A stretch of DNA of 64,000 nucleotides from Ancylobacter moscoviensis. Lineage in GTDB: Bacteria > Pseudomonadota > Alphaproteobacteria > Rhizobiales > Xanthobacteraceae. This document shows positions 25,655 to 44,099 of the stretch, in pieces. The position numbers were made by a program, and so were the translations under genes. Each line of letters begins with the position of its first letter. Position 1 is the stretch's first letter. The stretch is taken from positions 62,001-126,000 of the forward strand of contig NZ_VMBP01000004.1 of the NCBI RefSeq assembly GCF_007559435.1. Reading direction: 5' to 3'. The notes beneath the pieces are model-generated. The model did no database searches, was not told the origin of the DNA, and worked only from the letters and a program-made list of their open reading frames with translations.

Positions 25655-25909
25655 GTGAGCTACTCGGGAAGCACGCCCCTCGTCCAGGCCAAAGGGTTCG
25701 GCGGCTTGCCCGAGCGCGTGGAGCGCGAGGCGGGTGAGCGCGTCCCGTTCGACATCTTCGAGAAGGAAAAGCTGCCGCTCGCCCTGCGTGAGGCACCGAA
25801 CATGCCGATGCCGCTCCACTCCATGGCCAGCCTGTTCGCCCGAGGCGCCGATGCGTTGGATTGCCGGACCTTTGGCCTCGACATCGGTGAGCAGATGACT
25901 CATCCGTGA
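25655..25909 (+). pseudogene. N-terminal fragment of an AraC-family regulator
   Basis: A GTG at 25655 opens about 84 residues: VSYSGSTPLVQAKGFGGLPE, then LPLALREAPNMPMPLHSMA and FGLDIGEQMTHP, stop at 25907-25909. This resembles the start of the sensing domain of OruR/AraC-type regulators (LPL..., iPL..., FGLxxG). The DNA-binding half is missing and the following 250 bases do not encode it. It is either a truncated gene or, less likely, a small stand-alone protein. Confidence 0.45.
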
Positions 25910-26164
25910 TGTTCACTGCCAGCCGGGCGCTCTGGGTGTCCGTTTCAGAGACGCAGGGCAATGCGTCATTGGTGCGTCATCTCTGTTGCAAGCTACCTCA
26001 CCGATCCTGAGAGGCGGTCGGTGAGGCTTCCATGAAAGCACGGACTAAACATTGATAGGAAAAACCTCGTTAATTCAATATTAACAATATAAATTATTAC
26101 TCAAATCGCGAATATAATTCGCCCGAATTTGCGAAATAAGCTATTTTCAACCAAATATTTTCTC
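25910..26164. other. Non-coding gap with inverted repeat and AT-rich tract
   Basis: CCTCACCG (25996-26003) and CGGTGAGG (26019-26026) form an eight-base stem. From about 26039 to 26164 the sequence is strikingly AT-rich compared with everything around it and includes GCGAAT/ATTCGC (26108-26122). It marks the left border of the accessory island and the 3' end of the GntR gene. No gene is recognised. Confidence 0.5.
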
Positions 26165-26920
26165 TTAACTCTTTCCCCGCGCGGCCTGCCGAGGCCTCCG
26201 GGCTCCGTCCGACTCCATGTCCTTGATCAGCGAGAGGTAGCGCTCGACTGCCTTGTGGAACTTGGCCTGCCAGATTCTCTGCGCTTCCTCGCGATCACCG
26301 TCGCGGATCGCCTCGTAGAGCTTGACGACGTACTTCTCGGAGTCGCCTTTGCGGTCGGTGTAGACAACGGAAAGCAGATTATTGAAGCGCCTGACATCCC
26401 CCGTGAGCTCGGAGAAGTATCGCATCGTGCGCTGAAGCCCGGTGGCATCGATGATCGCCTGCTGGAACTCGAAGTCGTTCATCAGCGTATGCGACTGATC
26501 CTCCAGCCCTGCGTACTTCGCCGAATTCTGGGCAAGCTTCTCAAGCTGCTTCAGCACACTTGGCGATACCCTGCCGGGCTCCGACAGCAGATGGTCGAGG
26601 GCAATCCTGCCGAGCGCCATCCGGATGTTGTAGACGTCGATGACGCTGTGCGGGTCCACCGCGCTGACTGACGCGCCTTTGTTGCGCTGAATCTCGACGA
26701 ATCCTTCGCGAGCCAGAAGGCGCAATGCCTCGCGCACGGGGTGCCGCGAGACATTCAACATGTCGGTCAGTTGCTGCTCCACCAGCCGGTCACCGGGCTT
26801 GAAGTGCCCGGCGATGATGGCGTTGCGGATCTGCTCCGCAGCAAACTGCGTGCTCTCCGGCTGTGTCATGGGAGTCAGAATGGCGCCGGTCGCGCTTGCA
26901 TGTCGCATCGAGAACCCCAT
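26165..26920 (-). CDS. GntR-family regulator, FCD (FadR-like) subgroup
   Basis: Regulator of 251 residues. The N-terminal GntR winged helix (about 20-90) contains IRNAIIAGHFKPGDRLVEQQ and VSRHPVREALRLLAREGFVE; the rest is a helical FCD ligand domain. FCD members usually repress catabolic operons and release DNA on binding an organic acid. It is the last minus-strand gene of the island. A relative of the island's shared motif lies 37-52 bases upstream of its start (26957-26972), so autoregulation is plausible. A later ATG (MTQPEST) could also be the start. Confidence 0.88.
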   Translation of the reverse strand: MGFSMRHASATGAILTPMTQPESTQFAAEQIRNAIIAGHFKPGDRLVEQQLTDMLNVSRHPVREALRLLAREGFVEIQRNKGASVSAVDPHSVIDVYNIRMALGRIALDHLLSEPGRVSPSVLKQLEKLAQNSAKYAGLEDQSHTLMNDFEFQQAIIDATGLQRTMRYFSELTGDVRRFNNLLSVVYTDRKGDSEKYVVKLYEAIRDGDREEAQRIWQAKFHKAVERYLSLIKDMESDGARRPRQAARGKS

Positions 26921-26956
26921 AGGCGACCGCTGGAGATCGGCTGCGCGGCCATCGAA

Positions 26957-26972
26957 GATGTAGATTATATAC
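26957..26972. promoter_or_regulatory. Degenerate copy of the island operator motif
   Basis: On the minus strand this reads GTATATAATCTACATC, sharing ATCTACA and a similar flank with the perfect motif GATTATCTACAATC found at two other island promoters. It lies upstream of the GntR gene. The match is partial, so this is tentative. Confidence 0.35.
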
Positions 26973-27058
26973 GAACCCGATCGCTCGATGAGAAGCCCGT
27001 CGCGAGGAGTTCCACACGGGAAAGGTGCAAAAACGAAATCCGCCAGTCTTGCTTGATA

Positions 27059-28135
27059 TTACCCTGCCGATAGCCCCGCATTACGCGTCACGTAGTTGCG
27101 TTGCAGGACCCAGTCCGCGTCACTGAACCGATCCCGAGCAAAATTGAACTGGTGCCAATACGGATAGATGGAGGGAATGGCGCTCACATCGTCGAGCCGC
27201 CTTGTCTCTTCCGGCGTCAACTCCAGCTCGACCGCCGCGATATTGTCCCGGAAATGCGCTTCCGTGAGGCCCCCGACGACCAGCGACGTGATTGCCGGGC
27301 GATCCAGTAGCCATGCGAGGGCGACCTGCGCCGCGGTGACACCGCGAGCATCGGCGATCGCCACGAGTTCGTCGACGATACGCCAGAGCCGTTCCACATC
27401 ACGTATGGGAGGCTCGGTCCAGCCCTTGGCCTGCCTCGATCCGGGTGGTGTCGGCTGGCCGCGACGATGCGCCCCCGTCAAGAGACCGCCGGCGAGCGGG
27501 CTCCAGATGAGCACGCCGAGGCCCTGGTCCACCGAAATCGGCAGCAGTTCGTACTCGGCTTCGCGCGCTTCCAGGGTGTAATGTATCTGCTGCGTGACGA
27601 AGCGCTGATATCCATGGCTGTCGCTTGTGCCGAGCGCCTTCATGAGTTGCCAGCCGGCATAGTTCGAGCAACCGATGTAGCGGATCTTGCCGGCGGTCAC
27701 GAGAGTGTCCAGCGCGTGCAGCATTTCCTGCAGCGGCGTCAGTCCATCCCATTCATGCATATAGTATATGTCGATGACGTCCGTCTTGAGACGTTTCAGG
27801 CTCCTCTCGCACTCTCGGATCAGGTGATAGCGCGAGACGCCTTCATCGTTGGGACCGCTCCCGATGCGCATCCGTGCCTTCGAGGAGATCAGTACATCCT
27901 GACGGCGGCTGCCGAGCGCTTCGGCAAGGATCTCCTCGGAGCGCCCCGTAGAATACATGTTCGACGTGTCGAATACGTTGATGCCGGCATCGAGGCAAAG
28001 TCCGACGAGCCGGCGCGCCTCGTCCACGCCGTGACTGCCCGCAGCGGAGAACATGCCTTCTCCACCGAATGTGAAGGTACCCATGCTCAATGCGGATACC
28101 TTGAGGCCGGTTCTGCCCAGATTGCGATACTTCAT
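27059..28135 (-). CDS. Aldo/keto reductase
   Basis: A 358-residue aldo/keto reductase. The catalytic tetrad is visible: Asp56 and Tyr61 in FDTSNMYSTG, Lys86 in ISSKARM, and His127 in YYMHEWD. The start MKYRNLGRTGLKVSALSMGT (28135) is the family's classical opening with AGAGAG upstream; the longer open frame is not coding-like. It lies downstream of an SMP-30 lactonase in the same direction and probably interconverts an aldehyde or keto intermediate and its alcohol with NADPH. Substrate unknown. Confidence 0.87.
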   Translation of the reverse strand: MKYRNLGRTGLKVSALSMGTFTFGGEGMFSAAGSHGVDEARRLVGLCLDAGINVFDTSNMYSTGRSEEILAEALGSRRQDVLISSKARMRIGSGPNDEGVSRYHLIRECERSLKRLKTDVIDIYYMHEWDGLTPLQEMLHALDTLVTAGKIRYIGCSNYAGWQLMKALGTSDSHGYQRFVTQQIHYTLEAREAEYELLPISVDQGLGVLIWSPLAGGLLTGAHRRGQPTPPGSRQAKGWTEPPIRDVERLWRIVDELVAIADARGVTAAQVALAWLLDRPAITSLVVGGLTEAHFRDNIAAVELELTPEETRRLDDVSAIPSIYPYWHQFNFARDRFSDADWVLQRNYVTRNAGLSAG

Positions 28136-28170
28136 GATCCAAACTCTCTTCTCGCGTGGCGAGGGGAACC

Positions 28171-29085
28171 TTACTTCGCGCCGGCAGCGCGTGTGTTCAG
28201 GTAGACAGCGTAAAGACTGCTGCTCGCCGTAATGAAAAGGCGATTGAGCTTCGGGCCACCGAAGGTGATGTTCGCAACCGGCTCCGGGATCAGAATCTTC
28301 CCAAGCAGTTCCCCCGTACCCGCATAGCAATGGACGCCATCGCCCGCGGAAACCCAGATGTTCTCGTCGATGTCGAGCCGGATGCCGTCCGGGACGCCCG
28401 GATCGATATCCGCCAGCACCCCTTGGGACGTCAGCTTTCCTCCGGCACCAACCGAGAACTTCCGGATATGATGCGGCTTGTCACGGCCATGGGAGCGTCC
28501 ACTGTCGGCGACATAGAGCGTCGTTTCGTCGGCCGAGAAGGCGAGCCCGTTCGGCATGTCGAAGTCGTCCACGACCACGGAGAGTTCGCCGTCCAGCGGA
28601 TCAAGCCGGTAGACGTTCCGCGCGCCCGTCTCGCTTTCGGCCTTGTGGCCTTCATAGTCCGTGAGGATGCCGTACAGCGGATCCGTGAACCACACGGCTC
28701 CGTCGGAACTCACCACGACGTCGTTGGGGGAATTGAGGCGCCTGCCCCGATAGTTGTCCGCCAGAACCGTTATGCGGCCGTCATACTCGGTCCGGGTGAC
28801 ACGCCGGGCTCCGTGCTCGCACGAGATGAGACGGCCCTCACGGTCGCGGGTATTTCCATTCGAGAAATTGGACGGATACCGGAAGATGTCGACGTGACCA
28901 CTCTGCTCGTCCCACTTCAGCATCCTGTTGTTCGGTATGTCGCTGAAGACCAGAAAGCGTCCGTCGGCGAAATAGACCGGCCCTTCGGCCCAGCGCGTGC
29001 CGCTGTACAGGCGCTCGAGCTGGCACACCGGAATGATGAACGCGCTGAAGCGCGGGTCCAACGCCTCGAAATAAGAAGTACTCAC
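28171..29085 (-). CDS. SMP-30/gluconolactonase-family protein
   Basis: A 304-residue beta-propeller lactonase. Metal-binding positions can be recognised: Glu34 in RWAEGPVYF, Asn in LNSPNDVVV, and Asp in LYVADSGRS; PDGIRLD is also typical. There is no signal peptide, so it should act in the cytosol. The family opens sugar lactones (gluconolactone, gulonolactone). Together with a CRYL1-like dehydrogenase and an aldo/keto reductase, it suggests an aldonic-acid or lactone step in the island pathway. Confidence 0.87.
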   Translation of the reverse strand: MSTSYFEALDPRFSAFIIPVCQLERLYSGTRWAEGPVYFADGRFLVFSDIPNNRMLKWDEQSGHVDIFRYPSNFSNGNTRDREGRLISCEHGARRVTRTEYDGRITVLADNYRGRRLNSPNDVVVSSDGAVWFTDPLYGILTDYEGHKAESETGARNVYRLDPLDGELSVVVDDFDMPNGLAFSADETTLYVADSGRSHGRDKPHHIRKFSVGAGGKLTSQGVLADIDPGVPDGIRLDIDENIWVSAGDGVHCYAGTGELLGKILIPEPVANITFGGPKLNRLFITASSSLYAVYLNTRAAGAK

Positions 29086-29143
29086 GGTGGATTCCTCCCA
29101 TGCGGCCGGTCGGCCTTTCCTCCGCCGGCACGTCTTTTCACTT

Positions 29144-30091
29144 TCAAGCCGTCCGGGCTCCGAGGACGCGTTTCTTCGCTGACACGAAGGATGCGAGGCA
29201 GCGGTCGCGCCAACCCCGCTTCTCGGTCAGTTTCTCCATTGGTGTCGCGGCGCGCATCGCTGCATTGATCTTCGCCACGAGCTGCGGAGACCAGCTACGT
29301 GGATCCGCCTGCTCCCTGGCAAGGTTCTCGTACATGGGGCCAAGGTTCCGGCAATACTCGGAGACACCCTGGCTTGCATTAAGATCGATGGTTTCAAACG
29401 GCCCCATGAAAAACCAGCGAAGGCCGAGCCCGTCCTTTATCGCCTTGTCGACGGCATCGACATCGCAGACGCCGTCCTCCACGAGGCGGAACGCCTCCCC
29501 GAGAACCGCGCTCTGCAGGCGATTGACCAGGAATCCATTGATCTCGCGGGTCAGTGTCACGGGAGATTGGCCGACGTCTCGCATCAACACGACGGCGCGC
29601 TCCACGGCGGAAGCCTCGGTCCATGGAGCGGGGATGATCTCGACGAGCGGGATCAGATGCGGCGGATTGATCGGGTGAACCACCAGACAGCGCGCGGCGT
29701 TGCGAAGCCCCTCCGTAAAGGAGGAGGCCGGCAGTCCCGACGTGGAACTGCCAATCACTGTCAAGGGAGAGACAAGCTCGTCCAGTGTCACGTAGAAGGA
29801 CCGCTTGAGCTCGACACGCTCCGGCAGGCTTTCCTGGATGTAGTCGGCTCCCACGACTGCCGCGGCCAGATCCGTCGTGGTGTGAAGCCGTGCCATCACC
29901 ACGTCGATGGGGTCCGGTCCGGCGAGATCTTCCTTCGTGAGGTCTCCCAGAGCCTGTCGTACGAACGTCGTTGTGGCCGCCAGAGCACTTTCGGAAATGT
30001 CGAAGACGCGAACGTCGTACCCTGCGCGCGCAAATACCAGAGCCCAGGAAGATCCGACGACTCCCGTGCCAAGAACCGCTACCGTCGCCAT
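29144..30091 (-). CDS. 3-hydroxyacyl-CoA dehydrogenase-fold enzyme (gulonate 3-dehydrogenase/CRYL1-like)
   Basis: NAD-dependent dehydrogenase of 315 residues: N-terminal Rossmann motif VAVLGTGVVGSSWA, Ser in GSSTSGLP, catalytic-type His in VVHPINPPHLIPLVEI, and a helical C-terminal domain (NGFLVNRLQSAVL). The HPxNPPxxxPLVEI segment is characteristic of the lambda-crystallin/L-gulonate 3-dehydrogenase and carnitine-dehydrogenase group. The sugar-acid enzymes around it favour oxidation of a hydroxy acid, not fatty-acid oxidation. Exact substrate unknown. Confidence 0.85.
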   Translation of the reverse strand: MATVAVLGTGVVGSSWALVFARAGYDVRVFDISESALAATTTFVRQALGDLTKEDLAGPDPIDVVMARLHTTTDLAAAVVGADYIQESLPERVELKRSFYVTLDELVSPLTVIGSSTSGLPASSFTEGLRNAARCLVVHPINPPHLIPLVEIIPAPWTEASAVERAVVLMRDVGQSPVTLTREINGFLVNRLQSAVLGEAFRLVEDGVCDVDAVDKAIKDGLGLRWFFMGPFETIDLNASQGVSEYCRNLGPMYENLAREQADPRSWSPQLVAKINAAMRAATPMEKLTEKRGWRDRCLASFVSAKKRVLGARTA

Positions 30092-30228
30092 CGGCGTTTC
30101 TCTCCGTCTCGCAGTTTTCGTGATTGTTTTTGGATGCCGGCCCCCACGGCCGCAGCGCGGACCGATCGAGAGGGCTGGCCAATGTGCATCGGCGCGTTAC
30201 GCGCCGATGCGCTCCTCGTCTCTTCCGA

Positions 30229-30648
30229 TCAGAGCGAGATCGACAAATTCTTCACGGCGAGGGCTCCCGCACCGCGATAGGCGGTAATTTCGATTTCGAA
30301 GAGATACTCAGGGCCGCCAAGCGGGTTGCAGCTGACGCAGCTTGCAGGATCGACACCGCGGAACACTTCCCCCATATAGGCCATGACTTCCGGGACGTCT
30401 TCCTGGCGGGTGATGAAAAGCCGACGGCGGACAACATCGGCGAGGCTGCAACCGACTGCAGCCAGCGCGCCCTCGACGTTCTTTATCGCGTTCCTCGCCT
30501 GCTCCAGCGTGGTGTCCGGCATGACGCGCGTCGTGAAATCCCGACCAGACGTAAGGGACATGAATATCCAGTTGTCCAGTGCGACGATCCGCGAATAGCT
30601 TTCCTTATGCTCGAGGATGCTGCCCGACTTGAGCTTTACGATTTCCAT
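30229..30648 (-). CDS. RidA/YjgF-family protein lacking the canonical arginine
   Basis: Protein of 139 residues with the chorismate-mutase-like fold of RidA (SRIVALDNWIFMSLTSGR, TLEQARNAIKNVEGALAAVG, VMAYMGEVF). Typical RidA enzymes carry an arginine in 'PARxxVEVxxLP' that binds the carboxylate of the imine substrate. Here the matching segment reads DPASCVSCNPLGGPEYLFEI, with Ser at that place. It may therefore not be a standard imine deaminase and may belong to another Rid subgroup. Operon context: between SDR and dehydrogenase genes. Confidence 0.8.
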   Translation of the reverse strand: MEIVKLKSGSILEHKESYSRIVALDNWIFMSLTSGRDFTTRVMPDTTLEQARNAIKNVEGALAAVGCSLADVVRRRLFITRQEDVPEVMAYMGEVFRGVDPASCVSCNPLGGPEYLFEIEITAYRGAGALAVKNLSISL

Positions 30649-30672
30649 TTTTCTTCCGATGCGGTTCTGAAT

Positions 30673-31434
30673 TCAAATATAGACGCCGCCGTCGATCGAG
30701 ACGGTCTGGCCGGTGATCATGCTTCCGGCGAAACCGAGGAAGATCATGAGTTCGGCGACATCCTTCGTGGTGCAGACACGCTTCAGCGGCGTATTGGCGA
30801 GGACCGCGTTATGACGCTCTTCGGACCACTCCATGATCCAGGAACTGTCGACGACGCCGGGAGCGACCGCGTTGACCCGCACCTCTGGCGCCAGGGCGTG
30901 GGCGAGGTTCTTGGTCAGGTTGATGACGCCAGCCTTCGAGGCGCTGTAGGCGGGAGTGCTGGCGATCGCGCCGAAACCGGCGATCGACGCCGTGTTGACG
31001 ATCGCCCCCTTCGACGCCTTCAGGGCCGGCGCCGCCGTCTTGGCGCACCTGAACACGCCCATCAGGTTCACGTTCAGCAGGTTGGCCCACAGTTCTTCCG
31101 TGATCTGGTCGAGATCGGAAATCGGAACCGGCGTGTTGCGGCCGGGGGTGCCGGCATTGTTGATCAGAAGATCGAGGTGGCCGAGGTCGTCGATCGCCTT
31201 GAGGACCATCCGCGAGGCATCGTCGGCATTGCCAACATCTCCGGGCGCACCGATGACGGCGAGCCCCTGCTTCTTGAATTCTGCCAGGGCGGCCTCGCCG
31301 CGGGAGTCCGACGGCAGATAGTTGATGGCCACCTTTGCGCCGCTCTCAGCCATGATGCGCGCAGCTTCGAGGCCGATGCCGGAGCCTCCTCCGGTGACGA
31401 GCGCCGTCTTTCCCGTGAGATTATACGAGATCAT
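30673..31434 (-). CDS. Short-chain dehydrogenase/reductase
   Basis: SDR of 253 residues: TGGGSGIGLEA cofactor motif near the N-terminus, NNAG, the catalytic Ser in NTASIAGFG, and YSASK, ending GQTVSIDGGVYI. The ribosome site AAGGTAGTAAG is directly ahead of the ATG. It lies between an importer ATPase and the RidA-like gene, so it belongs to the island's main operon. The reaction is unknown. Confidence 0.86.
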   Translation of the reverse strand: MISYNLTGKTALVTGGGSGIGLEAARIMAESGAKVAINYLPSDSRGEAALAEFKKQGLAVIGAPGDVGNADDASRMVLKAIDDLGHLDLLINNAGTPGRNTPVPISDLDQITEELWANLLNVNLMGVFRCAKTAAPALKASKGAIVNTASIAGFGAIASTPAYSASKAGVINLTKNLAHALAPEVRVNAVAPGVVDSSWIMEWSEERHNAVLANTPLKRVCTTKDVAELMIFLGFAGSMITGQTVSIDGGVYI

Positions 31435-31487
31435 CTTACTACCTTTGATGTGCAGTGTCGGATGGATATCGATCAGGCGCCCGAACT

Positions 31488-32231
31488 TCAGGCGACCTCT
31501 AATGGCTTGCGCTTTTCGCGACGGAGGAACTTCTGCGTCTGTTCCTTCTGCGGATTGTCGATGACCTCCTCCGCCGTCCCGATTTCGCAGACCTCGCCTT
31601 GGTGCAGGAACGCCACGCGGTCAGCGGACTCGCGGGCAAAATTGATGTCGTGCGTGACGACGACCATCGTCATGCCCTCGCTCTTGAGCAAACGCATCGT
31701 CTCGAGCACTTCGCCGACTAGTTCGGGATCGAGCGCGGACGTGACCTCGTCGAACAGCATGTAGCTCGGCTCCATGGCGAGCGCGCGCGCGATGGCGAGG
31801 CGCTGCTGCTGGCCGCCGGACATCTGCGAGGGAAGGCTGTCCGCCTTGTTTCCCAGGCCGACATGGTCGAGATGCTTCTGCGCCAGAGCGAGCGCCTCCT
31901 TGCGGCCGCGTTTGGCGACGACGCGAGGCGCGAGGGCGACGTTCTCTAGCGCCGTCAGATGCGGAAACGCATTGTACTGCTGGAAAACGATGCCCAGCTT
32001 GCGGCGGAGCATGTTGATGTTGGTCTTCGGATCATGGACGCTGATCCCGTCGACGATGATCTCGCCGCCCTGTATCGGCTCAAGCCCGTTGATGCATTGA
32101 AGAAGAGTTGATTTGCCTGAACCGCTCGCGCCGATCAGGCAAAGGAGCTCGCCCTTGTTGACGTCGAGATTGATGCCCTTCAGTACCGCCAGTATCCCGA
32201 AGGTCTTTCGTACGTCCTTGATTTCAATCAT
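31488..32231 (-). CDS. Polar amino-acid-type ABC transporter ATP-binding protein
   Basis: ATPase of 247 residues: Walker [11 protein letters not shown]-loop VFQQYNAFPHLT, signature MSGGQQQR, Walker B YMLFDEVTSALDPE, H-loop VTHDINFARE. The start MIEIKDVRKTFG (32231) overlaps the permease stop by four bases (ATGA). This is the engine of the second family 3 importer in the window. Specificity is set by the binding protein encoded three genes earlier. Confidence 0.9.
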   Translation of the reverse strand: MIEIKDVRKTFGILAVLKGINLDVNKGELLCLIGASGSGKSTLLQCINGLEPIQGGEIIVDGISVHDPKTNINMLRRKLGIVFQQYNAFPHLTALENVALAPRVVAKRGRKEALALAQKHLDHVGLGNKADSLPSQMSGGQQQRLAIARALAMEPSYMLFDEVTSALDPELVGEVLETMRLLKSEGMTMVVVTHDINFARESADRVAFLHQGEVCEIGTAEEVIDNPQKEQTQKFLRREKRKPLEVA

Positions 32232-32884
32232 ACGACGATCTTCCTCTCCAGACGGCGGCTGTACCGGGAAACCGGATAGCAGATGATGAAATAGAAAAGA
32301 CCCGCCCCTATCAGCAGCAACCAGGTTTCGTGCGTCCTCGTGATGAGGATCTGGGTAGCTCGCATATATTCGACGTAGCCGACCACGCCGGCCAGAGCGC
32401 TGTCCTTGATCAGGCTGAGCACGAGGCCGATCCACGGCGTCAGTGCTGTCCTGAAGGCCAGTGGCATCGATATGTGCACCAGTTCCTGAAAGCCGTTCAT
32501 GCCGAGCGAGCGGGCGCTCTTGCGGTATTGAACCGGGACCGAAAGAAGGCCTGCCCGGACCACCTCGGCGGTCACCGCCGCCATCCAGGCGCTCAGCGCG
32601 AAGGTGCCGAACCAGAAAGGCGAAGCGCCGAAGCCGAGGATCGACAGGAAGCTGTTGGCGAGGATCAACTGAATGATCATCGGTACGCTACGCAGAATGT
32701 CGATAAACGGCGAGGTGGCGATCCTCATGGTGACGGACACGGTCCGCAGCCAGCCAAGAACGATCCCGGCCAGCGTGCCGATGATGGTGGCGGTGACGGC
32801 CAGCCTGACGGTGTTGAGAAGTCCCTGGGCCAGGAAATAGGCGTCCGACCAGGCGAGGCCTTGATTTGCGAACTGAAATTGCAC
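32228..32884 (-). CDS. Polar amino-acid-type ABC transporter permease
   Basis: Permease of 218 residues, about five hydrophobic segments, with EAA-like loop QYRKSARSLGMNGFQELVHI and ILRSVPMIIQLILANSFL. I choose a GTG start at 32884: AGGAGC precedes it by a few bases and it begins two bases past the stop of the partner permease. The frame is open further but would overlap that gene widely. Pairs with the permease at 32887-33549. Confidence 0.87.
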   Translation of the reverse strand: MQFQFANQGLAWSDAYFLAQGLLNTVRLAVTATIIGTLAGIVLGWLRTVSVTMRIATSPFIDILRSVPMIIQLILANSFLSILGFGASPFWFGTFALSAWMAAVTAEVVRAGLLSVPVQYRKSARSLGMNGFQELVHISMPLAFRTALTPWIGLVLSLIKDSALAGVVGYVEYMRATQILITRTHETWLLLIGAGLFYFIICYPVSRYSRRLERKIVV

Positions 32885-32886
32885 GC

Positions 32887-33549
32887 TTAGCTCCTGTAGA
32901 CGAGCCGGAACGCCAGCTGGGCCGAGAACTGCAGTGCTTTGGCGATGAGATAGTAAATCAACGCGGTCACCAGGAAGAATTCGAACGTCCGGAAAGAGTT
33001 GGACTGAGCATATTGCGTCGCTCCCGAAAGTTCCGGCAATCCGACCAGCATACCAAGCGAGGTGTTCAGCATCCCCCAAATGCCTTGCGTGACATAGGCA
33101 AGGAAGATCACCTTGAACATCTGCGGAAAGATCACATGGATGAAACTCTGCGCTCCCGTCATGCCGAGAGAGCGCGCGGCCGGCAGTTGCTGTCGCGGAA
33201 TGGCTGACAGGCCACCCCTGAAAATCTCCGTCATGTATCCCGCGTTGTTGAAGGAGACGGAGATGAGGACGGCAGCGTAGCTGGAGATGTTGATGTGAAA
33301 GGCGCCCAGCCCGAAGTAGAAGACATAGAGCTGAAACACGGCTGGTGTGTTGCGCGACAGTTCAACCCAGCATGTCGAAAAGCGGTAGGCCCATCCCTCG
33401 CCGTGTTGGCGCGCGACGGCCATCGGCATAGCGATCAGCGTGCCGATGATGAAGGCGAGCAGGGTGATCTGGACCGTCACCCAGGCTCCGGCCAACAGAA
33501 GGGGAAGCGAATCCCAGACGATGGACCAGTAAAACTGATAGCCGTTCAT
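32887..33549 (-). CDS. Polar amino-acid-type ABC transporter permease
   Basis: Permease of 220 residues beginning MNGYQFYWSIVWDSLPLLLA. The loop RQQLPAARSLGMTGAQSF is the EAA-type contact with the ATPase, and VELSRNTPAVFQLYVFYFGL is the family motif after the second helix. It follows the binding-protein gene by 54 bases and precedes the second permease by two bases. Confidence 0.88.
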   Translation of the reverse strand: MNGYQFYWSIVWDSLPLLLAGAWVTVQITLLAFIIGTLIAMPMAVARQHGEGWAYRFSTCWVELSRNTPAVFQLYVFYFGLGAFHINISSYAAVLISVSFNNAGYMTEIFRGGLSAIPRQQLPAARSLGMTGAQSFIHVIFPQMFKVIFLAYVTQGIWGMLNTSLGMLVGLPELSGATQYAQSNSFRTFEFFLVTALIYYLIAKALQFSAQLAFRLVYRS

Positions 33550-33603
33550 GCAATCATCCCATGGAGATGCCGGCGGGTTTTCCCGCCGGCACAAGCCTTG
33601 TGG

Positions 33604-34428
33604 TTAGAAGTTGATGCCTTCGGCTGTCAGCGGCGGCAGCGGACCATCGCCGTAGTACTTGTGGTACACTTCGGCCCAGCGGCCGTTAGCAACCTGCGTA
33701 AAGACGAAGATCCGGGCCCAGTTCAGGAATTGCTGGTCGTCACGCTTGACGGCGATGGAGCCGAAGTCCGGAAGCGGCGCCAGGCCGGCCATGACGAATT
33801 CCGGGAACTGACCGCTCTGCGCCAACTGGTTGAAGACGGCGACGTTGATCACGATGGCGTCGATCTTGCCCTGCTGGAGGGCCATGAACTGCTCGGCATC
33901 GCTGGCGTAGCCAGTGTAGGTCGCGCCGGAATCCTTCCAACCCTTTTCAAGCTCTTCCCGGAAGAGTTTCTCGGGCGTGTTGCCAACCACGGAGCCGAGC
34001 TTCTTGGATGCCAGATCAGAATACTGGGTGATGCCGGTACCCTTGCGGGTAACAACAGCCATAACATTGTTTGTGTAGGGTTGGGTGAAGGCAACGGTGA
34101 GTGCACGGGCCGGCGTCGGCGTCGTGGAGGCGATCAGCACGTCGATGCGGTTCGAAACCAGCGCCGGTATACGATCCGGCGACGGCGTTTCGATGATCTC
34201 CGGCTCGGCGCCGAGCGCCTTCGCCATGTCTTTGCAGTAGGTGACGTCGTAGCCGTCAGGTTCGTTTTTGGCGTCGCGGAAACCCGCGGGCGGGCTGTCC
34301 AACATGACGCCGCAGCGCAGCTTCTTGGACTGCACGATCTTGTCCAAAGCGGACTGCGCGCTCGCCGGGCCCGCAAACGCCAATGCGAGTACGGTCGTTG
34401 CGGTCAGTGCATAAGCAAGTGTCTTCAT
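33604..34428 (-). CDS. ABC transporter family 3 binding protein
   Basis: Periplasmic binding protein of 274 residues with signal peptide MKTLAYALTATTVLALAF ending near GPASAQS. The mature part (SKKLRCGVMLDSPPAGFRD, GYDVTYCKDMAKALGAEPEI, RIPALVSNRIDVLIAS) matches polar amino-acid-binding proteins. GAGGGGAGT precedes the ATG. Its neighbours are sugar-acid and monooxygenase enzymes rather than amino-acid enzymes, so the ligand may be an unusual charged compound. Confidence 0.88.
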   Translation of the reverse strand: MKTLAYALTATTVLALAFAGPASAQSALDKIVQSKKLRCGVMLDSPPAGFRDAKNEPDGYDVTYCKDMAKALGAEPEIIETPSPDRIPALVSNRIDVLIASTTPTPARALTVAFTQPYTNNVMAVVTRKGTGITQYSDLASKKLGSVVGNTPEKLFREELEKGWKDSGATYTGYASDAEQFMALQQGKIDAIVINVAVFNQLAQSGQFPEFVMAGLAPLPDFGSIAVKRDDQQFLNWARIFVFTQVANGRWAEVYHKYYGDGPLPPLTAEGINF

Positions 34429-34490
34429 ACAGAACTCCCCTCTTTTTGGAATTTGTTCGAGTATTGCAGAGTGCACGCTGCGCCGTGTGC

Positions 34491-35582
34491 TCAGCCTGCC
34501 TTCTTTACCGTCTCGCTCCCGACACCAATATCGGAGAGCGGGCCCAGCTCCTTTTCGATCAGCGGTACAACCTCGCTCTTGAAGCGCACGATGGACTTGT
34601 GCGCACGTTCGAGGGACATGCAGCCGAACGAGAAATTGCAGGTATAATTGCTGGGATTCAGCCGCTTGATATCGGCGACCATCTTCTCGGCGACGGCGTG
34701 GGGGTCGCCAACGACGGTCTTGTCGGCGTACTCGTCCAGCGTGTACTCGCCATCATAGGCTTGGTTCTTGATGAAGCCGCTTTCATCGAGCGGAAGTTCG
34801 GCGTGACGCAGATGATGCGCCATCCGGCCGACATAGCGGGCACGCTCTGCCGCCTCCAAGGCCTCGGCCCGGCTGTCGGTGATGCAAACATACTGCATGA
34901 TGGCCAGCGGCTTGGTCGACGGCTGCTCGCCGATCGACGTCCAGGCGTCGTTCAGGCCATCGACCATCTTGTAGAGAACGGGCGAGCCAAGCGTGCTCGC
35001 GGCAAGGAACGGCGTCGCCTTCCACTTCTTGAACCGATCGAGCAGCCTGGGATGCGACGAGGTCACGAAGATCGGCGGCAAAGGCTTTTGCTGCGTGCGT
35101 ATGGCGAAATGCGTCTTCGGAAGGGAGACGTACTTGCCATTGTACTCGACCTCGCCGTCGACAAGCGCCCGCTCGATCACATCCCAGTATTCGAGGAAAA
35201 CGTCCACGCGGTCGTCCAGCACGACCTTGTAGCGATCGAACTCGTACTGCTGATAGCCAGTCCCCATGCCGATGACGAGGCGGCCGTCGGTCTGTGTATC
35301 GGCGACGGCGATCTCCTGCGCCACGCGAAGTGGATTGTAGAGCGGCAGCACGATCACGCCTGGTCCGAGCTTAATCCTCTTCGTCCAGCCGGCCGCATAT
35401 GAGCACATCATCAGGGGCGACGGCGAACTGGAGTAGTTCGCGAAGTGATGCTCGGCAAACCATGCGATATCGAAGCCTAATTCTTCGGCGGTCTCGACCA
35501 TCTTGCGCGTATCGCGCATCACCCCGCGAGACCCGTCCGGGTGGTCACGGAGGGTCATGAGGTTGAACAGACCGAGTTGCAT
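34491..35582 (-). CDS. LLM-class flavin-dependent monooxygenase (second system)
   Basis: Luciferase-superfamily protein of 363 residues: MQLGLFNLMTLRDHPDGSRG, FDIAWFAEHHFANYSSSPSP, KLGPGVIVLPLYNPLRVAQE, and DGRLVIGMGTGYQQYEFDRY. ATG at 35582 follows AGGAG by about seven bases. A flavin reductase gene lies directly upstream in the same operon (48-base gap) and should supply reduced flavin. The pairing with an importer means the imported compound, or its first product, is probably oxygenated, but the chemistry is unknown. It is not closely similar by eye to the LLM protein at 19047. Confidence 0.88.
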   Translation of the reverse strand: MQLGLFNLMTLRDHPDGSRGVMRDTRKMVETAEELGFDIAWFAEHHFANYSSSPSPLMMCSYAAGWTKRIKLGPGVIVLPLYNPLRVAQEIAVADTQTDGRLVIGMGTGYQQYEFDRYKVVLDDRVDVFLEYWDVIERALVDGEVEYNGKYVSLPKTHFAIRTQQKPLPPIFVTSSHPRLLDRFKKWKATPFLAASTLGSPVLYKMVDGLNDAWTSIGEQPSTKPLAIMQYVCITDSRAEALEAAERARYVGRMAHHLRHAELPLDESGFIKNQAYDGEYTLDEYADKTVVGDPHAVAEKMVADIKRLNPSNYTCNFSFGCMSLERAHKSIVRFKSEVVPLIEKELGPLSDIGVGSETVKKAG

Positions 35583-35630
35583 CAAATTCTCCTGAGTCGT
35601 GCGCGGTGGCTGGTGGCTGCCGCGCGTGTC

Positions 35631-36140
35631 TTAACCAGCCTTCTGAAGGGCTAGCGGCGCAGCGACCGCATATGAGCCGTTCTGGTAGATGAGAGGGGCA
35701 ATATCCGGAGCGAAATGGGCCGCCTTGACACCGCCGATGATGATGTCGTGCGTGGCGTACGAGATGGCCTGCTCGACTTCGCAGAAGAGCGAGGCCTGAG
35801 CGTCCGGAAGGTAGGGAATACCGTCGATTTCGGCCCAGCCTCCGATGTCGAAACGCTCTTGCAGAGGCAGTCCGCCACTAAAGGAATTCGAAACATCGGC
35901 CTGGGAGGCACGCAGGACATTGATGCAATAGCGCCCCTCGTCTTTCAACGGCGAGCTGATCGACGCTCTTTTGTTTACACACGCCAGGATCGAGATGGGC
36001 GAGAAACTCAGCGGAGTGACCGATGTCACAGTAATTCCATACCGTACATCGCCGCTTTTGCAGGAAATTACACAGACCGTCGATGCCAGCCGACGCATAG
36101 ACTGCCGGAAGTGCTCTGTCCGTTGATCCTGGCTAAGCAT
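35631..36140 (-). CDS. Flavin reductase partner of the second LLM monooxygenase
   Basis: A 169-residue flavin reductase-like protein: FRQSMRRLASTVCVISCKSG, then GITVTSVTPLSFSPISILAC and FDIGGWAEIDGIPYL. First gene of the island's long minus-strand operon; the perfect copy of the island motif lies 34-49 bases upstream of its ATG. Expected to reduce FMN or FAD with NAD(P)H for the following monooxygenase. Confidence 0.87.
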   Translation of the reverse strand: MLSQDQRTEHFRQSMRRLASTVCVISCKSGDVRYGITVTSVTPLSFSPISILACVNKRASISSPLKDEGRYCINVLRASQADVSNSFSGGLPLQERFDIGGWAEIDGIPYLPDAQASLFCEVEQAISYATHDIIIGGVKAAHFAPDIAPLIYQNGSYAVAAPLALQKAG

Positions 36141-36173
36141 TTCTGGGTTCCTCTGAGTTGCCGCTAGATTGAC

Positions 36174-36189
36174 GATTATCTACAATCTG
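36174..36189. promoter_or_regulatory. Island operator motif, copy 1
   Basis: GATTATCTACAATCTG, upstream of the flavin-reductase gene that heads the main operon. The same 16 bases occur on the other strand at 36924-36939. AGATTG (36166-36171) and CAATCT (36183-36188) also form an inverted pair. Likely bound by the island's GntR/FCD regulator. Confidence 0.6.
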
Positions 36190-36231
36190 TCAACGCGATT
36201 TGACGCTTTCCGCACTGGGATGCCGGCGACG

Positions 36232-36921
36232 CTACTCGTCGTCGTGGGAGTGAGGGGAGGCGGGTAGATCGAAGTGCCTGGCAAGGTCGTCCACTTGCGA
36301 GGGAGACAAGTGCCGCGGGTTCAGATTGCGGAGAAGCAGATGGAGCTTGGCTGTCTCCTCCATCTCCTCGATCGCGTACACTGCCGCTTCCAGATCTTTT
36401 CCCGCCACTACCGGGCCGTGATTGGCTAGCAATACTGATGTGTACTTGCCGGCTAGTCCCTTGATGGCGTCGGCGACGGCGGAGTCACCGGGCCTGAAAT
36501 ACGGAACCAGAGCGGTTCGCCCGGCACGCATCAGATAGTACGGCGTCAGGGGGGGCAGCACGGCCGTCGGATCCACGTCGGGAAGCATCGAGAGCGCCAC
36601 CGAGTGCGTGGAGTGCAGATGCACGACCGCCCGTGAGTGCCTGACGGTGTCATACAGGGCCGCGTGCAGGGGGGCCTCTTTCGTCGGCTTGTCGCCAGCG
36701 AGCAGGTTCCCCTTGGCATCCAGCCGCGAGAGCGATGCCGGATCCAGGAAGCCCAAGGAGGCGTTTGTCGGCGTCACGAGCCACCCGCCGTCATCGAGCC
36801 GGACGGAGATGTTTCCCGAGGATCCCGGGGTCAGGCCTCGATTGAACAGGGAAGCCCCGTATCGAACGATCTGCTCCCGGATTCGGGTCTCGTTGAAACT
36901 CGCCACCACTCGCAGCCCCAT
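36232..36921 (-). CDS. otnC: Class II aldolase-type 3-oxo-tetronate 4-phosphate decarboxylase
   Basis: Protein of 229 residues of the class II aldolase/adducin family: LTPGSSGNISVRLDDGGWLV, the metal-site histidines in VHLHSTHSVAL and the later ANHGPVVAG, and Glu in PTKEAPLHAAL. With LtnD and OtnK encoded just across a divergent promoter, the best match is OtnC, which decarboxylates 3-oxo-tetronate 4-phosphate to dihydroxyacetone phosphate. The start at ATG 36921 lies at the shared motif. An open frame continues upstream but overlaps the promoter and ltnD. Confidence 0.82.
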   Translation of the reverse strand: MGLRVVASFNETRIREQIVRYGASLFNRGLTPGSSGNISVRLDDGGWLVTPTNASLGFLDPASLSRLDAKGNLLAGDKPTKEAPLHAALYDTVRHSRAVVHLHSTHSVALSMLPDVDPTAVLPPLTPYYLMRAGRTALVPYFRPGDSAVADAIKGLAGKYTSVLLANHGPVVAGKDLEAAVYAIEEMEETAKLHLLLRNLNPRHLSPSQVDDLARHFDLPASPHSHDDE

Positions 36922-36923
36922 TG

Positions 36924-36942
36924 CAGATTGTAGATAATCTGC
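36924..36942. promoter_or_regulatory. Island operator motif, copy 2 (divergent otnC/ltnD promoter)
   Basis: GCAGATT and AATCTGC (arms at 36923-36929 and 36936-36942) flank GTAGAT, a clean dyad. The interval 36924-36939 is the exact reverse complement of the 16-base motif at 36174-36189. It sits in the 54-base gap between otnC and ltnD, touching the otnC start, so a bound repressor would block both genes. Confidence 0.6.
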
Positions 36943-36975
36943 ATATAAGCGGGCTCGAAGCAAGGGAGTTTCGGC

Positions 36976-37905
36976 GTGTCTTCCAACGGTTCCGAGGCAA
37001 AATCCGGCGTCGCTGTCATCGGTCTGGGATCGATGGGTTTTGGCATGGCGAGTTCGTTGCTCCGCCATGGACACATCGTCTCCGGATACGATCCAGCCCC
37101 GGCGGCGATCGCGAAACTGGCGTCGGCTGGTGGCACTTCCGCCCGTTCGCCGGCGGAAGCGGTGCGGGGCGCCTCCATCGTCCTGTGCGTCGTCGTCAAC
37201 AGTGTGCAAACGGAGGCCGTGCTTTTCGCCGAGAACGGAGTTTTCCCCGTGATGGCGCCTGGATCGGTCTTCGTCTCGTCGGCCACCATGGCGCCGGCCG
37301 ACGCCCGGCGCTTCGCTGCGCGTCTCGCCGAGCGGGATATTCTCTATCTGGACGCACCTATTTCCGGGGGCGCCGCCAAGGCGGCGACCGGTGCCCTGAC
37401 CGTGATGGCGTCTGGCAGCATTGCGGCCTTCGATCGGGCGGCGGATGTGCTGGATGCGATCTCCAGCAAGGTCTATCGGCTCGGCAGCGAGCCAGGTATC
37501 GGCGCCTCGGTGAAGATGATCAACCAGCACCTGGCCGGCGTTCATATCGCCGCGGCATGCGAGGCGATGGCTCTGGCGTCGAAGCTCGGACTGGATCTGC
37601 CCACCGTATACGAGGTCATCACCGCGTCGGCCGGCAATTCATGGATGTTCGAGAACCGGGTTCCGCACATCCTCGAGGGCGACTACAGGCCGCTCAGCTC
37701 GGTCGAAATATTCGTCAAGGATCTCGGGATTTTGCAGGATATGGCGCGAGCGGAACGCTACCCGGCGCCGCTCGCCGCTGCTGCACTGCAGATGTACCTG
37801 GCGACCTCCGGCGCAGGAATGGGCGCCGAGGACGACGCATCGGTGGCGCGAACATACGCGGCACTGTCTGGCGCCGTACTGCCCGCCGTCAAACCCACCA
37901 CGTGA
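36976..37905 (+). CDS. ltnD: Tetronate (L-threonate-type) 2-dehydrogenase
   Basis: NAD-dependent beta-hydroxyacid dehydrogenase of 309 residues: GVAVIGLGSMGFGMASSLLR dinucleotide fold, substrate loop DAPISGGAAKAATGALTVM, catalytic Lys in VKMINQHLAG, and a helical C-terminal domain. A GTG start has GGGAG ahead. The companion genes otnK and otnC make an L-threonate/D-erythronate-type dehydrogenase (LtnD) the best fit: it oxidises C2 of the tetronate before OtnK acts. The isomerase OtnI used by the known pathway was not found here. Confidence 0.82.
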   Translation: MSSNGSEAKSGVAVIGLGSMGFGMASSLLRHGHIVSGYDPAPAAIAKLASAGGTSARSPAEAVRGASIVLCVVVNSVQTEAVLFAENGVFPVMAPGSVFVSSATMAPADARRFAARLAERDILYLDAPISGGAAKAATGALTVMASGSIAAFDRAADVLDAISSKVYRLGSEPGIGASVKMINQHLAGVHIAAACEAMALASKLGLDLPTVYEVITASAGNSWMFENRVPHILEGDYRPLSSVEIFVKDLGILQDMARAERYPAPLAAAALQMYLATSGAGMGAEDDASVARTYAALSGAVLPAVKPTT

Positions 37906-37966
37906 CCTATCCGCAGCCGAAGCTCGGCAAGACCGGCCGGTTTGCACCGTACAGGAGATGGCTCCC

Positions 37967-39235
37967 ATGACCGCGCTGCTCGCAGCCATCGCGGACGACT
38001 ACACGGGCGCGTCGGATCTCGCGAACACATGGCGCAAGTCCGGTCTCAGGACCGTGCAGACCATTGGCGTCCCGGCCGACAAGGAAGCCTTCGGCGGGAT
38101 AAATGCGATCGTGGTGTCGCTGAAGATACGTTCTGCCCCTGTCGCGGAAGCCGTGTCCGGCGCTCTTGCGGCGGAGGCACTCCTGAGGGAGATCGGCGTT
38201 CGCCATGTCATGTACAAGATTTGTTCCACGTTCGATTCCACAGATGACGGCAACATCGGCCAGGTTACGGATGCCCTAATGGAACGTGCGGGGCAGGGTT
38301 GGGTGTTTGTCACGCCGGCTTTCCCGGAAACCGGTCGGACCGTTTACAAGGGAAATCTGTTCGTCAACGACGTTCCCCTGAACGAAAGTTCGCTTCGCCA
38401 TCACCCGCTGAACCCGATGCGCGACGCAAACCTCGCCCGCATATTGGCAAAGCAGTCCGAGCGGCCTGTCCGCATCCTTGACGTTCAGACGGTGGCGGCA
38501 GGTCTTGGCGCCTGTCGCGAGAAAATCCAGTCCTTTTCCGATATCCGGCCGTCGATCATCGCCGACGCGATCGACGATGCCCATCTTGACGTGCTTGGCC
38601 GTCTCGCCTTCGAAACGGCCGTTTCCACGGGAGCGTCAGGTCTCGGCCACGGCCTCGCCAGGGCGGCGCTGGAGGCCTGTCGTTCGGAAGACGGGGCCAC
38701 CAGCGGCTTCCAGCCGGTAGGGGGCCGCGCCGCTGCGATCGCCGGCAGTTGCTCGGCGCGTACGCTCGAGCAAATCGCGGTTGCCGAAAAGCGTATGCCT
38801 GTCCTGCGGCTTGATCCCGAATGTATCGTCGCCGGGTCGGGAGCCGTCGATGAAGCCTTGGCCTTTGCGCGGCGCCATCTTGAAGCGGGACCCGTCCTCA
38901 TCGCCGCATCGGCCTCTTCCGAAGCCGTCGCTGCGCTTCAGCAGAAGTACGGCAGGATGGAGACGGGGCATGCGATCGAGCGCGTCCTGGCGACGATTGC
39001 TCTTGGCCTCGTCAATGAGGGCGTTCGTCGTCTCGTTGTCGCTGGCGGGGAAACGTCCGGCGCCGTGGTCGACATGCTCGGCATACGATCCTTCGAGGTC
39101 GGGGAGGAGCTTGCTCCCGGCGTGCCGATGCTTCGCACCTTCGGTCAGCCTGGAGGCGATCTCGCCATGGCATTGAAATCCGGCAATTTCGGCGGTCCCG
39201 ACTTCCTTCCCGAAGCGCTCTCGCGACTCGCTTGA
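37967..39235 (+). CDS. otnK: 3-oxo-tetronate kinase (four-carbon acid sugar kinase family)
   Basis: Kinase of 422 residues of the YgbK/DUF1537 group: N-terminal IADDYTGASDLANTWRKSGL, KICSTFDSTDDGNIGQVTDA, and C-terminal VVAGGETSGAVVDMLGI and FGQPGGDLAMALKSGNFGG. Such kinases phosphorylate 3-oxo-tetronates at O4. AGGAG nine bases ahead supports the ATG at 37967 rather than 37958. It follows ltnD by 61 bases on the plus strand; with OtnC it feeds dihydroxyacetone phosphate into central metabolism. Confidence 0.85.
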   Translation: MTALLAAIADDYTGASDLANTWRKSGLRTVQTIGVPADKEAFGGINAIVVSLKIRSAPVAEAVSGALAAEALLREIGVRHVMYKICSTFDSTDDGNIGQVTDALMERAGQGWVFVTPAFPETGRTVYKGNLFVNDVPLNESSLRHHPLNPMRDANLARILAKQSERPVRILDVQTVAAGLGACREKIQSFSDIRPSIIADAIDDAHLDVLGRLAFETAVSTGASGLGHGLARAALEACRSEDGATSGFQPVGGRAAAIAGSCSARTLEQIAVAEKRMPVLRLDPECIVAGSGAVDEALAFARRHLEAGPVLIAASASSEAVAALQQKYGRMETGHAIERVLATIALGLVNEGVRRLVVAGGETSGAVVDMLGIRSFEVGEELAPGVPMLRTFGQPGGDLAMALKSGNFGGPDFLPEALSRLA

Positions 39236-39320
39236 GGTTTCAAGCGAGCTATGCCGAGCGATTGCCTTACCTGAACGCCGCCGAACCGTGACGTGATCGA
39301 AAGACAACCTGGAGGACACC

Positions 39321-40076
39321 ATGGGCAACAGCTTTGAAGGCAAGACCGTCGTAATCTCGGGCGCGGCCGGTGGCGTTGGCCGTGCCGCCGTCGCGCAGTT
39401 CGTTGAGAACGGTGCTCGTGTCTGCGCGACCGACATCGCCACTTCCGTCACCGATCTCGAACGCGGCTCGTCCGGTCAGATCGTCGCTGTGCCCGCCGAT
39501 GTCACGAAATCCATGGAGGTGGAAAAGATCTTCGCCGCCGCGGAACAGCGTCTGGGTCCGGTGGATGTACTGGTCAGCAATGCCGGGTTCATCATCTCCA
39601 AATCCGCCCACGACACTACGGAAGACGAATGGGATAGCGTCATGAACGCGAATGCCAAGTCCTTCTTCCTGATGTCGAAGCGCGCGCTGCCGGTAATGCT
39701 GCAGCGGGGCGCAGGCTCGATCGTCGCCACCGGCTCCATTTCAAGCGTCGTCGGTCTGCCGGAACAGGCCGCCTACTGCGCAGCTAAGGGCGCGCTGCTG
39801 CAGCTCGTTCGCCAGATGGCGGTCGACTACGCGTCCCGCGGGATTCGGGTGAACGCCGTAGGCGCAGGTTCGATCAATACTCCGTTCCTCACGCGCTACC
39901 TCGAAGGTCTCGAAGATCCCGCTGCCGGCGAGGCGGCGATCAAAAGTGCTCATCCGCTGGGCCGCTGGGCCGAACCGAAGGAGATTGCCGATGCGATCTT
40001 CTATCTGTCAGGCCCGGCGGCATCCTTTGTGACCGGGCAGATCCTGATGGCTGACGGCGGATACAGCGCTCGATAG
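39321..40076 (+). CDS. Short-chain dehydrogenase/reductase
   Basis: SDR of 251 residues: ISGAAGGVGRAA cofactor motif, NAG in VLVSNAGF, catalytic Ser in ATGSISSVVG and YCAAK, C-terminal GQILMADGGYSAR. CTGGAGGACACC leads into the ATG. It follows otnK on the same strand and is the last island gene on the right side. Substrate unknown; may act on a sugar acid or alcohol. Confidence 0.85.
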   Translation: MGNSFEGKTVVISGAAGGVGRAAVAQFVENGARVCATDIATSVTDLERGSSGQIVAVPADVTKSMEVEKIFAAAEQRLGPVDVLVSNAGFIISKSAHDTTEDEWDSVMNANAKSFFLMSKRALPVMLQRGAGSIVATGSISSVVGLPEQAAYCAAKGALLQLVRQMAVDYASRGIRVNAVGAGSINTPFLTRYLEGLEDPAAGEAAIKSAHPLGRWAEPKEIADAIFYLSGPAASFVTGQILMADGGYSAR

Positions 40077-40079
40077 CTC

Positions 40080-40190
40080 TGGCGAAGCATCAGGCCGGGG
40101 CCGGAGTGCCGGAGGAAACGATAGACCACCGAGGCCCATATGGGGGCGGATGGTGTTGTCGTGCCATTCAAGCGATTTCTTCGCAGAAGC
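40080..40190 (-). pseudogene. Possible C-terminal remnant of an IS3-type transposase
   Basis: On the minus strand, after a stop at 40191-40193, one frame reads ASAKKSLEWHDNTIRPHMGL and GGLSFPP. The spacing W..NTIRPH..LGGL.P recalls the end of IS3-family integrase domains (YNTxRPHxxLG). Only about 37 codons remain, with no start, no terminal repeats and no upstream domain. It is weak but sits at an island border. Confidence 0.35.
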
Positions 40191-40239
40191 CTAGGATCGT
40201 CCGGCTGACCAGCTCGATGCCGTTGCCGGAGAGACGATC

Positions 40240-40451
40240 ATGCGGGGCCGACCGCGGCGGACGATGACCTGGTTCGCCCGCCTTTCTCCGTGTTTCTTCG
40301 CTGGGCTTCTCGCAGGGGCTATCGGTGCGTTGGCCTACACGGGCGCCTGCGTGAACGACGGTGCTGCTTTCTTCGTCCTGTGGTGCATGGTGGTTATGGC
40401 ACCGTCGGCGGGATCGGCGCTGCCATCGGGCCAAGGTCGCTAGCTTGGTAG
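40240..40451 (+). pseudogene. Frameshifted C-terminal remnant of an NrsF-type (DUF1109) anti-sigma factor
   Basis: The first frame gives MTWFARLSPCFFAGLLAGAI, ALAYTGACVNDGAAFFVLW and CMVVMA. Near 40400 the frame must shift by one base to continue TVGGIGAAIGPRSLAW and the stop at 40449-40451. Together these resemble the final two helices of NrsF proteins (GxLxALxYxLxCxExxxxFxxxW ... GAxxGPRLLRW). The N-terminal two thirds are missing, so this is a decayed fragment. Confidence 0.5.
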
Positions 40452-40480
40452 AGGCCAGGAAGTCGTGAAAGGTGACCGCG

Positions 40481-42299: not shown

Positions 42300-44099
<1,800 letters not shown>

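Follow-up and report, generated by a model that had tools for sequence, protein, structure and literature searches.

What does a luciferase-like monooxygenase (LLM) do beside enzymes that degrade tetronates, the four-carbon sugar acids? The question is raised by a block of about 14 kb in Ancylobacter moscoviensis, at 26165-40076 of the 64,000-nucleotide stretch analysed here (the window; positions 62,001-126,000 of contig NZ_VMBP01000004.1, with all coordinates below counted in the window). Its 16 genes, all present as open reading frames, combine the LLM and a flavin reductase with a polar-amino-acid-type importer, several dehydrogenases, a lactonase and the tetronate proteins OtnC, LtnD and OtnK (otn genes). 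As its candidate chemistry we prefer a reaction in which a keto sugar acid would be split oxidatively into a tetronate and a two-carbon acid, and we see evenly balanced chances that the genes form a single catabolic regulon which moves horizontally and is controlled by the GntR protein.

A sequence-only reading had taken the block for one catabolic island. The block is a single unit with precise edges, because homology to Ancylobacter sonchi (L032) begins at 26190 and ends at 40091. Nucleotide comparison gave one uninterrupted match between these positions (86.0% over 13,952 columns), and the A. sonchi flanks were unmatched, the compared stretch extending 1.6 kb and 5.5 kb past the match ends. 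The sole other match between the window and A. sonchi was 285 bases long and distant, at window position 1140. The G+C content of the block was 61.3%, versus 66.6% in window positions 1-24000 and 67.8% in 44000-64000. The sequence-only reading had instead placed the borders by gene debris on both sides, which stands only in part: the gene caller found one 84-codon frame (25655-25909) within 25135-26164 on the left and no frame within 40077-40480 on the right, and Pfam gave no match in the three putative debris fragments tested, two of which overlap. The match ends with A. sonchi are the stronger boundary evidence. By eye only, the TPR (tetratricopeptide-repeat) gene at 24370-25134 seems truncated at its start, and a minus-strand fragment just outside the block (40077-40181, no Pfam match) resembles the end of an IS3-type transposase, judged by what we take to be an IS3-type motif.

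In a scan of the genome collection, the best 80 of 468 relatives were kept. A conserved core, consisting of the LLM, the flavin reductase, the importer, one short-chain dehydrogenase (SDR1), a Rid-like protein and the GntR regulator, was found in 33 of the 80 loci and on a plasmid of Rhizobium NXC24. Gene counts over these 34 loci depend on per-gene identity thresholds that we chose, and several loci end at contig ends; L050, which is among the 33, is a contig of 3.8 kb with the GntR, reductase and LLM genes only, and the LLM frames of L097 are broken. The genes are listed with these counts in reading order, the minus strand before the plus strand.

36232-36900, minus strand: OtnC, 3-oxo type (NF043034, 323.5 bits, cut-off 250; 5 of 34 loci)
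35631-36140, minus strand: flavin reductase partner (RutF/HpaC-type matches below cut-off; 33 loci)
34491-35585, minus strand: luciferase-like monooxygenase, LLM (34 loci)
33604-34476, minus strand: importer binding protein (model predicted local distance difference test score, pLDDT, 86; amino-acid and opine binding protein folds among its matches; 33 loci)
32887-33594, minus strand: importer permease 1 (32 loci)
32228-32884, minus strand: importer permease 2 (33 loci)
31488-32240, minus strand: importer ATPase, polar amino acid type (33 loci)
30673-31434, minus strand: SDR1, core short-chain dehydrogenase (33 loci)
30229-30648, minus strand: Rid-family protein without the catalytic arginine (PF01042, 66.6 bits; 31 loci)
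29144-30091, minus strand: CRYL1/PRK06129-type dehydrogenase (PRK06129, 408.7 bits, cut-off 347; 2 loci)
28171-29085, minus strand: SMP-30-type lactonase (Pfam SGL, 166 bits; 11 loci)
27059-28138, minus strand: aldo/keto reductase (3 loci)
26165-26920, minus strand: GntR-family regulator, putative operator reader (GntR-type NCBIfam matches, none above cut-off; 34 loci)
36976-37905, plus strand: LtnD, L-threonate dehydrogenase family (NCBIfam, 431.1 bits, cut-off 350; 6 loci)
37958-39235, plus strand: OtnK, 3-oxo-tetronate kinase (NCBIfam, 492.8 bits, cut-off 350; 5 loci)
39321-40076, plus strand: SDR2, candidate aldose or polyol dehydrogenase (14 loci)
26190-40091, no strand: putative mobile module as a whole (A. 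sonchi nucleotide match; flanks unmatched)

The gene types named by the sequence-only reading were all present. Its "three SDR/dehydrogenases" proved to be two SDRs beside the CRYL1-like enzyme, LtnD and the aldo/keto reductase, and it had omitted the GntR regulator, which belongs to the block.

The otn genes adjoined the core in 6 of the 34 loci, in two arrangements; OtnC and OtnK lay beside the core in L029, L032, L037, L038 and L049, and LtnD in these and in L026. The arrangement of L029, L032 and L049 is that of the window, with OtnC first on the monooxygenase strand and LtnD, OtnK and SDR2 opposite. An additional OtnI gene was found in the L029 block (360.5 bits, above cut-off) and, as a homologue by clustering, in L049. 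Rhizobium sp. S152 (L037, extended as L108) carries a divergent otn set on the other side of the core, comprising LtnD, OtnI, OtnK and OtnC above cut-off, an SMP-30 homologue and its own LacI/GntR-type regulator; L038 begins like L037. No OtnI was found among the block's genes. The sole OtnI match in the window's genome (393 bits, cut-off 325) also passes as a hydroxypyruvate isomerase (397 bits, cut-off 353). It lies in a gcl-hyi-glxR run that adjoins two oxalate-type formyl-CoA transferase genes and an oxalyl-CoA decarboxylase gene (C10:182000-198000, L109). Because a second OtnK (543.9 bits, above cut-off) is encoded beside an OtnC homologue on another contig (C11:22000-41000, L161), the block is not the genome's only tetronate equipment. 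DenD had no match above cut-off in this genome.

The two gene sets are also connected by a predicted operator. Exact palindromes were enumerated in 284 intergenic stretches, and CAGATTGT-NN-ACAATCTG was among the most recurrent. Two sites lie in the block.

36172-36189, no strand: operator 1, upstream of the flavin reductase gene at 31 bp from its ATG (3 mismatches to the 18-base consensus; exact 14-base core)
36924-36941, no strand: operator 2, between the divergent OtnC and LtnD genes (1 mismatch to the consensus; exact 14-base core)

With up to 4 mismatches allowed, the operator was found within 450 bp upstream of the monooxygenase operon (320 bp in the window) in 34 of 35 loci; the number fell to 33 at up to 3 mismatches and to 26 at up to 2. 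The exception, L051, has its site about 650 bp upstream of the LLM gene because the reductase there was not called. At up to 2 mismatches, 36 sites were counted in 0.75 Mb of core loci versus 1 in 0.91 Mb of 47 control loci, which held 46 sites at up to 4 mismatches. When only exact copies were considered, the 14-base core GATTGTNGAYAATC occurred twice in the 4.18-Mb genome of the window, both times in the block. It was matched in 31 of the 34 genomes, some matches lying elsewhere in the genome, and the reversed pattern was matched in none of the 34. Paired sites like those of the window were present in L026, L029, L032 and L049; in Rhizobium a site lies between SMP-30/SDR2 and the reductase. 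These data indicate a putative operator common to the monooxygenase/importer operon and the OtnC and LtnD-OtnK-SDR2 genes, which the local GntR protein probably reads. Adjacency in two arrangements and the shared operator together support the view that the monooxygenase and tetronate genes belong together, a pairing that the sequence-only reading had singled out and that indeed recurs elsewhere. The palindromes that recurred most in the enumeration were G+C-rich ones in the gaps between binding-protein and permease genes (e.g. L034, L039). Promoter-like sites (2 versus 3.5 expected) and terminator-like sites (15 versus 10.2 expected, standard deviation 2.6) were not used.

The core is present in many plant- or soil-associated bacteria, with hosts including Rhizobium, Mesorhizobium, Acidisoma, Gluconacetobacter, Pantoea, Pseudomonas and Caballeronia. 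Gain, loss or transfer of the otn genes is frequent, since the label for otn carriage needed 5 changes on a tree built from 34 LLMs with two outgroups, a number equally low in 35 of 500 shuffles. The closest copy by LLM (98%) was L026, from a Xanthobacteraceae metagenome-assembled genome (MAG), which matched the window at 88-92% nucleotide identity in four pieces. This MAG locus appears to have lost OtnK, the CRYL1-like gene and the greater part of OtnC by clean deletions, and a separate CRYL1-like/OtnK/OtnC run lies on another contig of the same genome (L107). Among plasmids, 1 of 1235 matching records reached 80% and the others stayed below 60%; viral contigs held no relative. A class sample gave 1 of 385 genomes at E 1e-100, the window's own, and a family sample gave 3 of 198, the other two being different systems at 50% identity. 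The remaining 47 of the 80 loci were rejected as relatives of the module (LLM identity 42-54%, core absent); those that recur are different systems, with branched-chain importers, Rieske oxygenases and type III glutamate-ammonia ligase.

Other gene neighbourhoods were seen in the same scan. Several loci of the L075-L101 range (e.g. L085) carry another recurrent LLM system with a Rieske oxygenase, an aldo/keto reductase and a flavin adenine dinucleotide (FAD)-dependent oxidoreductase, together with type III glutamate-ammonia ligase, a polar-amino-acid-type importer and a Cucumopine_C domain protein. A second importer of the polar amino acid type (c1-c3 and ATPase) adjoins the core in L044, L046, L048, L051 and L054; its binding-protein gene has an operator-like site (3 mismatches) in front of it in L044, L046 and L048. 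In two Gluconacetobacter loci (L045, 3691-6270; L047, 3617-6208) a TonB-dependent-receptor-like gene, below NCBIfam cut-offs, adjoins the core importer genes.

The importer and the Rid protein bear on the nature of the substrate. In the binding protein, the Arg that we take to bind a carboxylate was present in 38 of 38 sequences, and the position presumably occupied by an ammonium-binding Asp held Asp in 1 of 38 (Ala in 17, Ser in 15, Asn in 5). We lean towards an importer that would take up a carboxylate whose amino group, if there is any, would not be a free alpha-ammonium. In the Rid protein, Ser or His replaces the equivalent of Arg105/107 in 31 of 31 aligned sequences. The accessible part of PMC4433059 describes this RidA arginine as essential for imine hydrolysis and about 10% of RidA proteins as having serine. 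Because this arginine is absent throughout, an early idea that the Rid protein hydrolyses an imine was given up. The block also offers a context for a Rid protein without this residue. As a separate feature, the Rid clade (the window protein and 30 orthologues) has an invariant C-V-x-C. Amine chemistry is disfavoured because the Rid protein lacks the imine-hydrolase arginine and the binding protein the ammonium-binding Asp; a nitrogen substrate with a substituted amine may still be compatible. The suggestion of the sequence-only reading that a nitrogen-, sulfur- or ether-containing conjugate releases the tetronate was not upheld by these residues, and none of the 16 genes was recognisable as one of sulfur metabolism.

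The predicted pathway follows from the remaining enzymes. SDR2 adjoins SMP-30 in L034, L035, L036, L039 and L013, and such partners recur, as SDR2 with SMP-30 in Rhizobium and as a D-xylose-dehydrogenase-like SDR (336 bits, cut-off 400) with SMP-30 in Caballeronia. The solved chains nearest to the lactonase, 3e5z and 3dr2, are both named gluconolactonases. Tentatively, and at somewhat less than even chances, a sugar or sugar lactone would be oxidised and opened by SDR2 and the lactonase, with a ketone then made by SDR1. The LLM has a luciferase fold, its nearest structures being luciferases and RslO1 and then type II Baeyer-Villiger enzymes, all at 18-22% identity; its EHH motif is invariant across 53 sequences. 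By analogy with the type II Baeyer-Villiger enzymes, it may insert one oxygen beside the ketone, using reduced flavin mononucleotide (FMNH2) from the reductase. A cut of a six-carbon sugar acid in this way, giving a four-carbon tetronate and glyoxylate or oxalate as the two-carbon acid, is analogical and rather doubtful as a specific step; whether the monooxygenase supplies the tetronate at all, we judge at even odds. The tetronate would quite probably be oxidised by LtnD together with an isomerase, or directly at C3 if the CRYL1-like enzyme acts on it; OtnK would then phosphorylate the product and OtnC would decarboxylate it to give dihydroxyacetone phosphate, a fate predicted from the OtnK and OtnC families. 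The nearest solved chain to the CRYL1-like enzyme is lambda-crystallin 3ado, and we consider it a possible 3-dehydrogenase of a sugar acid. The isomerase step may use the Hyi/OtnI-type enzyme of the gcl-hyi-glxR run near the oxalate genes, or may be unnecessary if C3 is oxidised directly by the CRYL1-like enzyme. These otn steps would be those of the pathway in the accessible text of PMC12540250, whose 2-oxo bypass does not fit because the OtnC of the block is of the 3-oxo type. In its most specific form, which we regard as improbable, the LLM would cut a six-carbon keto sugar acid or lactone at C2-C3, for example plant dehydroascorbate, or the 2,3-diketo-L-gulonate formed by its hydrolysis, to L-threonate and oxalate, in a dedicated mobile regulon with the tetronate pathway. 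In plants, dehydroascorbate oxidation via oxalyl-L-threonate yields the same two products, as reported in the available portion of PMC12540250. The formyl-CoA transferases and the oxalyl-CoA decarboxylase of the genome could take the oxalate half.

Several observations weigh against one pathway that runs from the monooxygenase through the tetronate, and some of them suit a different explanation, in which an otn cassette handles plant L-threonate or erythronate alone beside an unrelated monooxygenase regulon. No otn gene lies beside the core in 28 of the 34 loci (at least 4 of these, L030, L033, L050 and L051, are cut by contig ends), and the otn genes of L037/L108, with their own regulator gene, have no operator site within 4 mismatches nearby. 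OtnK above cut-off is absent from 4 of the 33 core genomes; together with the loci lacking adjacent otn genes, this implies that the core's product is not always handled via otn. Genome-wide OtnK co-occurrence was rejected as support for the pairing, because 29 of 33 core genomes is uninformative against 103 of 120 Rhizobium genomes that were drawn irrespective of the core and include some core genomes; OtnK is thus common in Rhizobium with or without the core. The C2-C3 cut is chemistry by analogy, and the SDR and lactonase families are broad. The CRYL1-like gene was rejected as a general OtnK partner, since outside the module it lay beside OtnK in only 1 of 22 stretches (L107), these being 19 of 20 OtnK regions (L143 excluded as the L029 module) plus L107, L110 and L161; its link rests on L107 and the L026 deletions. 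The operator motif was discovered on the same loci, which makes its count near the core partly circular, whereas the whole-genome count is not. That count places one exact operator core before each gene set, and the monooxygenase strand opens with OtnC. Together with adjacency in two arrangements, this argues against two independent neighbours, which we consider unlikely.

A conjugate of nitrogen is a somewhat better candidate, though still an unlikely one. The importer would take up either an amino-sugar acid or an N-substituted amino acid of the opine or Amadori kind, the LLM would cut the C-N or an adjacent C-C bond to free a four-carbon sugar piece, and the Rid protein would clear an imine or related intermediate. 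The polar amino acid class of the importer fits, as does the replaced ammonium Asp if the amine is substituted, and the binding-protein fold matches include NocT, OccJ and SocA with glucopine or deoxyfructosylglutamine; SocA, however, is a weak sequence match (44.8 bits versus 86.4 for the best chain). According to the accessible part of PMC9537276, a Pseudoalteromonas strain cannot grow on the amino-sugar acid GlcNAc1A without a Rid protein whose role is unexplained, but in the block the Rid residue at the imine-hydrolysis position is Ser or His in every aligned sequence. The block has no recognisable pyridoxal phosphate (PLP) enzyme, transaminase or amine oxidase. Sulfur scavenging is very improbable by comparison. 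SsuD and YxeK/YtnJ systems release sulfur from sulfonates or S-substituted cysteine, and the LLM and importer might do likewise: MsuD, SsuD, SfnG and CmoJ/YtnJ are among the luciferase-fold relatives, and cystine-type importer components match below cut-off. Those relatives rank below luciferases and Baeyer-Villiger enzymes, however, the block has no recognisable sulfonate importer, deacetylase or desulfurase, and sulfur release gives no reason for the otn genes.

Oxidative cleavage of a keto sugar acid remains our favoured reading. It predicts a new substrate for luciferase-like monooxygenases. Ordinary tests should suffice to find the substrate of the block, given its operator, conserved core and binding protein. 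Searches of an open-access library listed no paper that pairs such a monooxygenase with tetronate genes, and each related system shares only part of the block. As far as the available text of PMC9537276 goes, the ong pathway for GlcNAc1A likewise has a Rid protein in a sugar-acid cluster, but it has a PLP deaminase and 2-keto-3-deoxygluconate (KDG) kinase where the block has the monooxygenase and otn genes. The Rut pyrimidine pathway also combines an LLM, a Rid protein and a RutF-like reductase; the block matches RutC at 22.1 bits (cut-off 169.1) and RutF at 101 (cut-off 254.75), both far below, no RutB- or RutD-like gene was recognised among its 16 genes, and it has otn genes instead. The two-component luciferase-like monooxygenases (luciferase, RslO1 and then the diketocamphane type II Baeyer-Villiger enzymes) are alike in fold, EHH motif and an adjacent flavin reductase, from which the block differs by its low identity and its sugar-acid gene context. 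The lower steps resemble the bacterial L-threonate pathway, which has the four steps LtnD-OtnI-OtnK-OtnC (Zhang et al. 2016, cited by the accessible text of PMC12540250) and of which the block encodes LtnD, OtnK and 3-oxo OtnC above cut-offs. The block differs from it in lacking OtnI and in placing a monooxygenase, a lactonase and a polar-amino-acid-type importer in the regulon, which would add an oxidative front end to the known four-carbon acid-sugar pathway.

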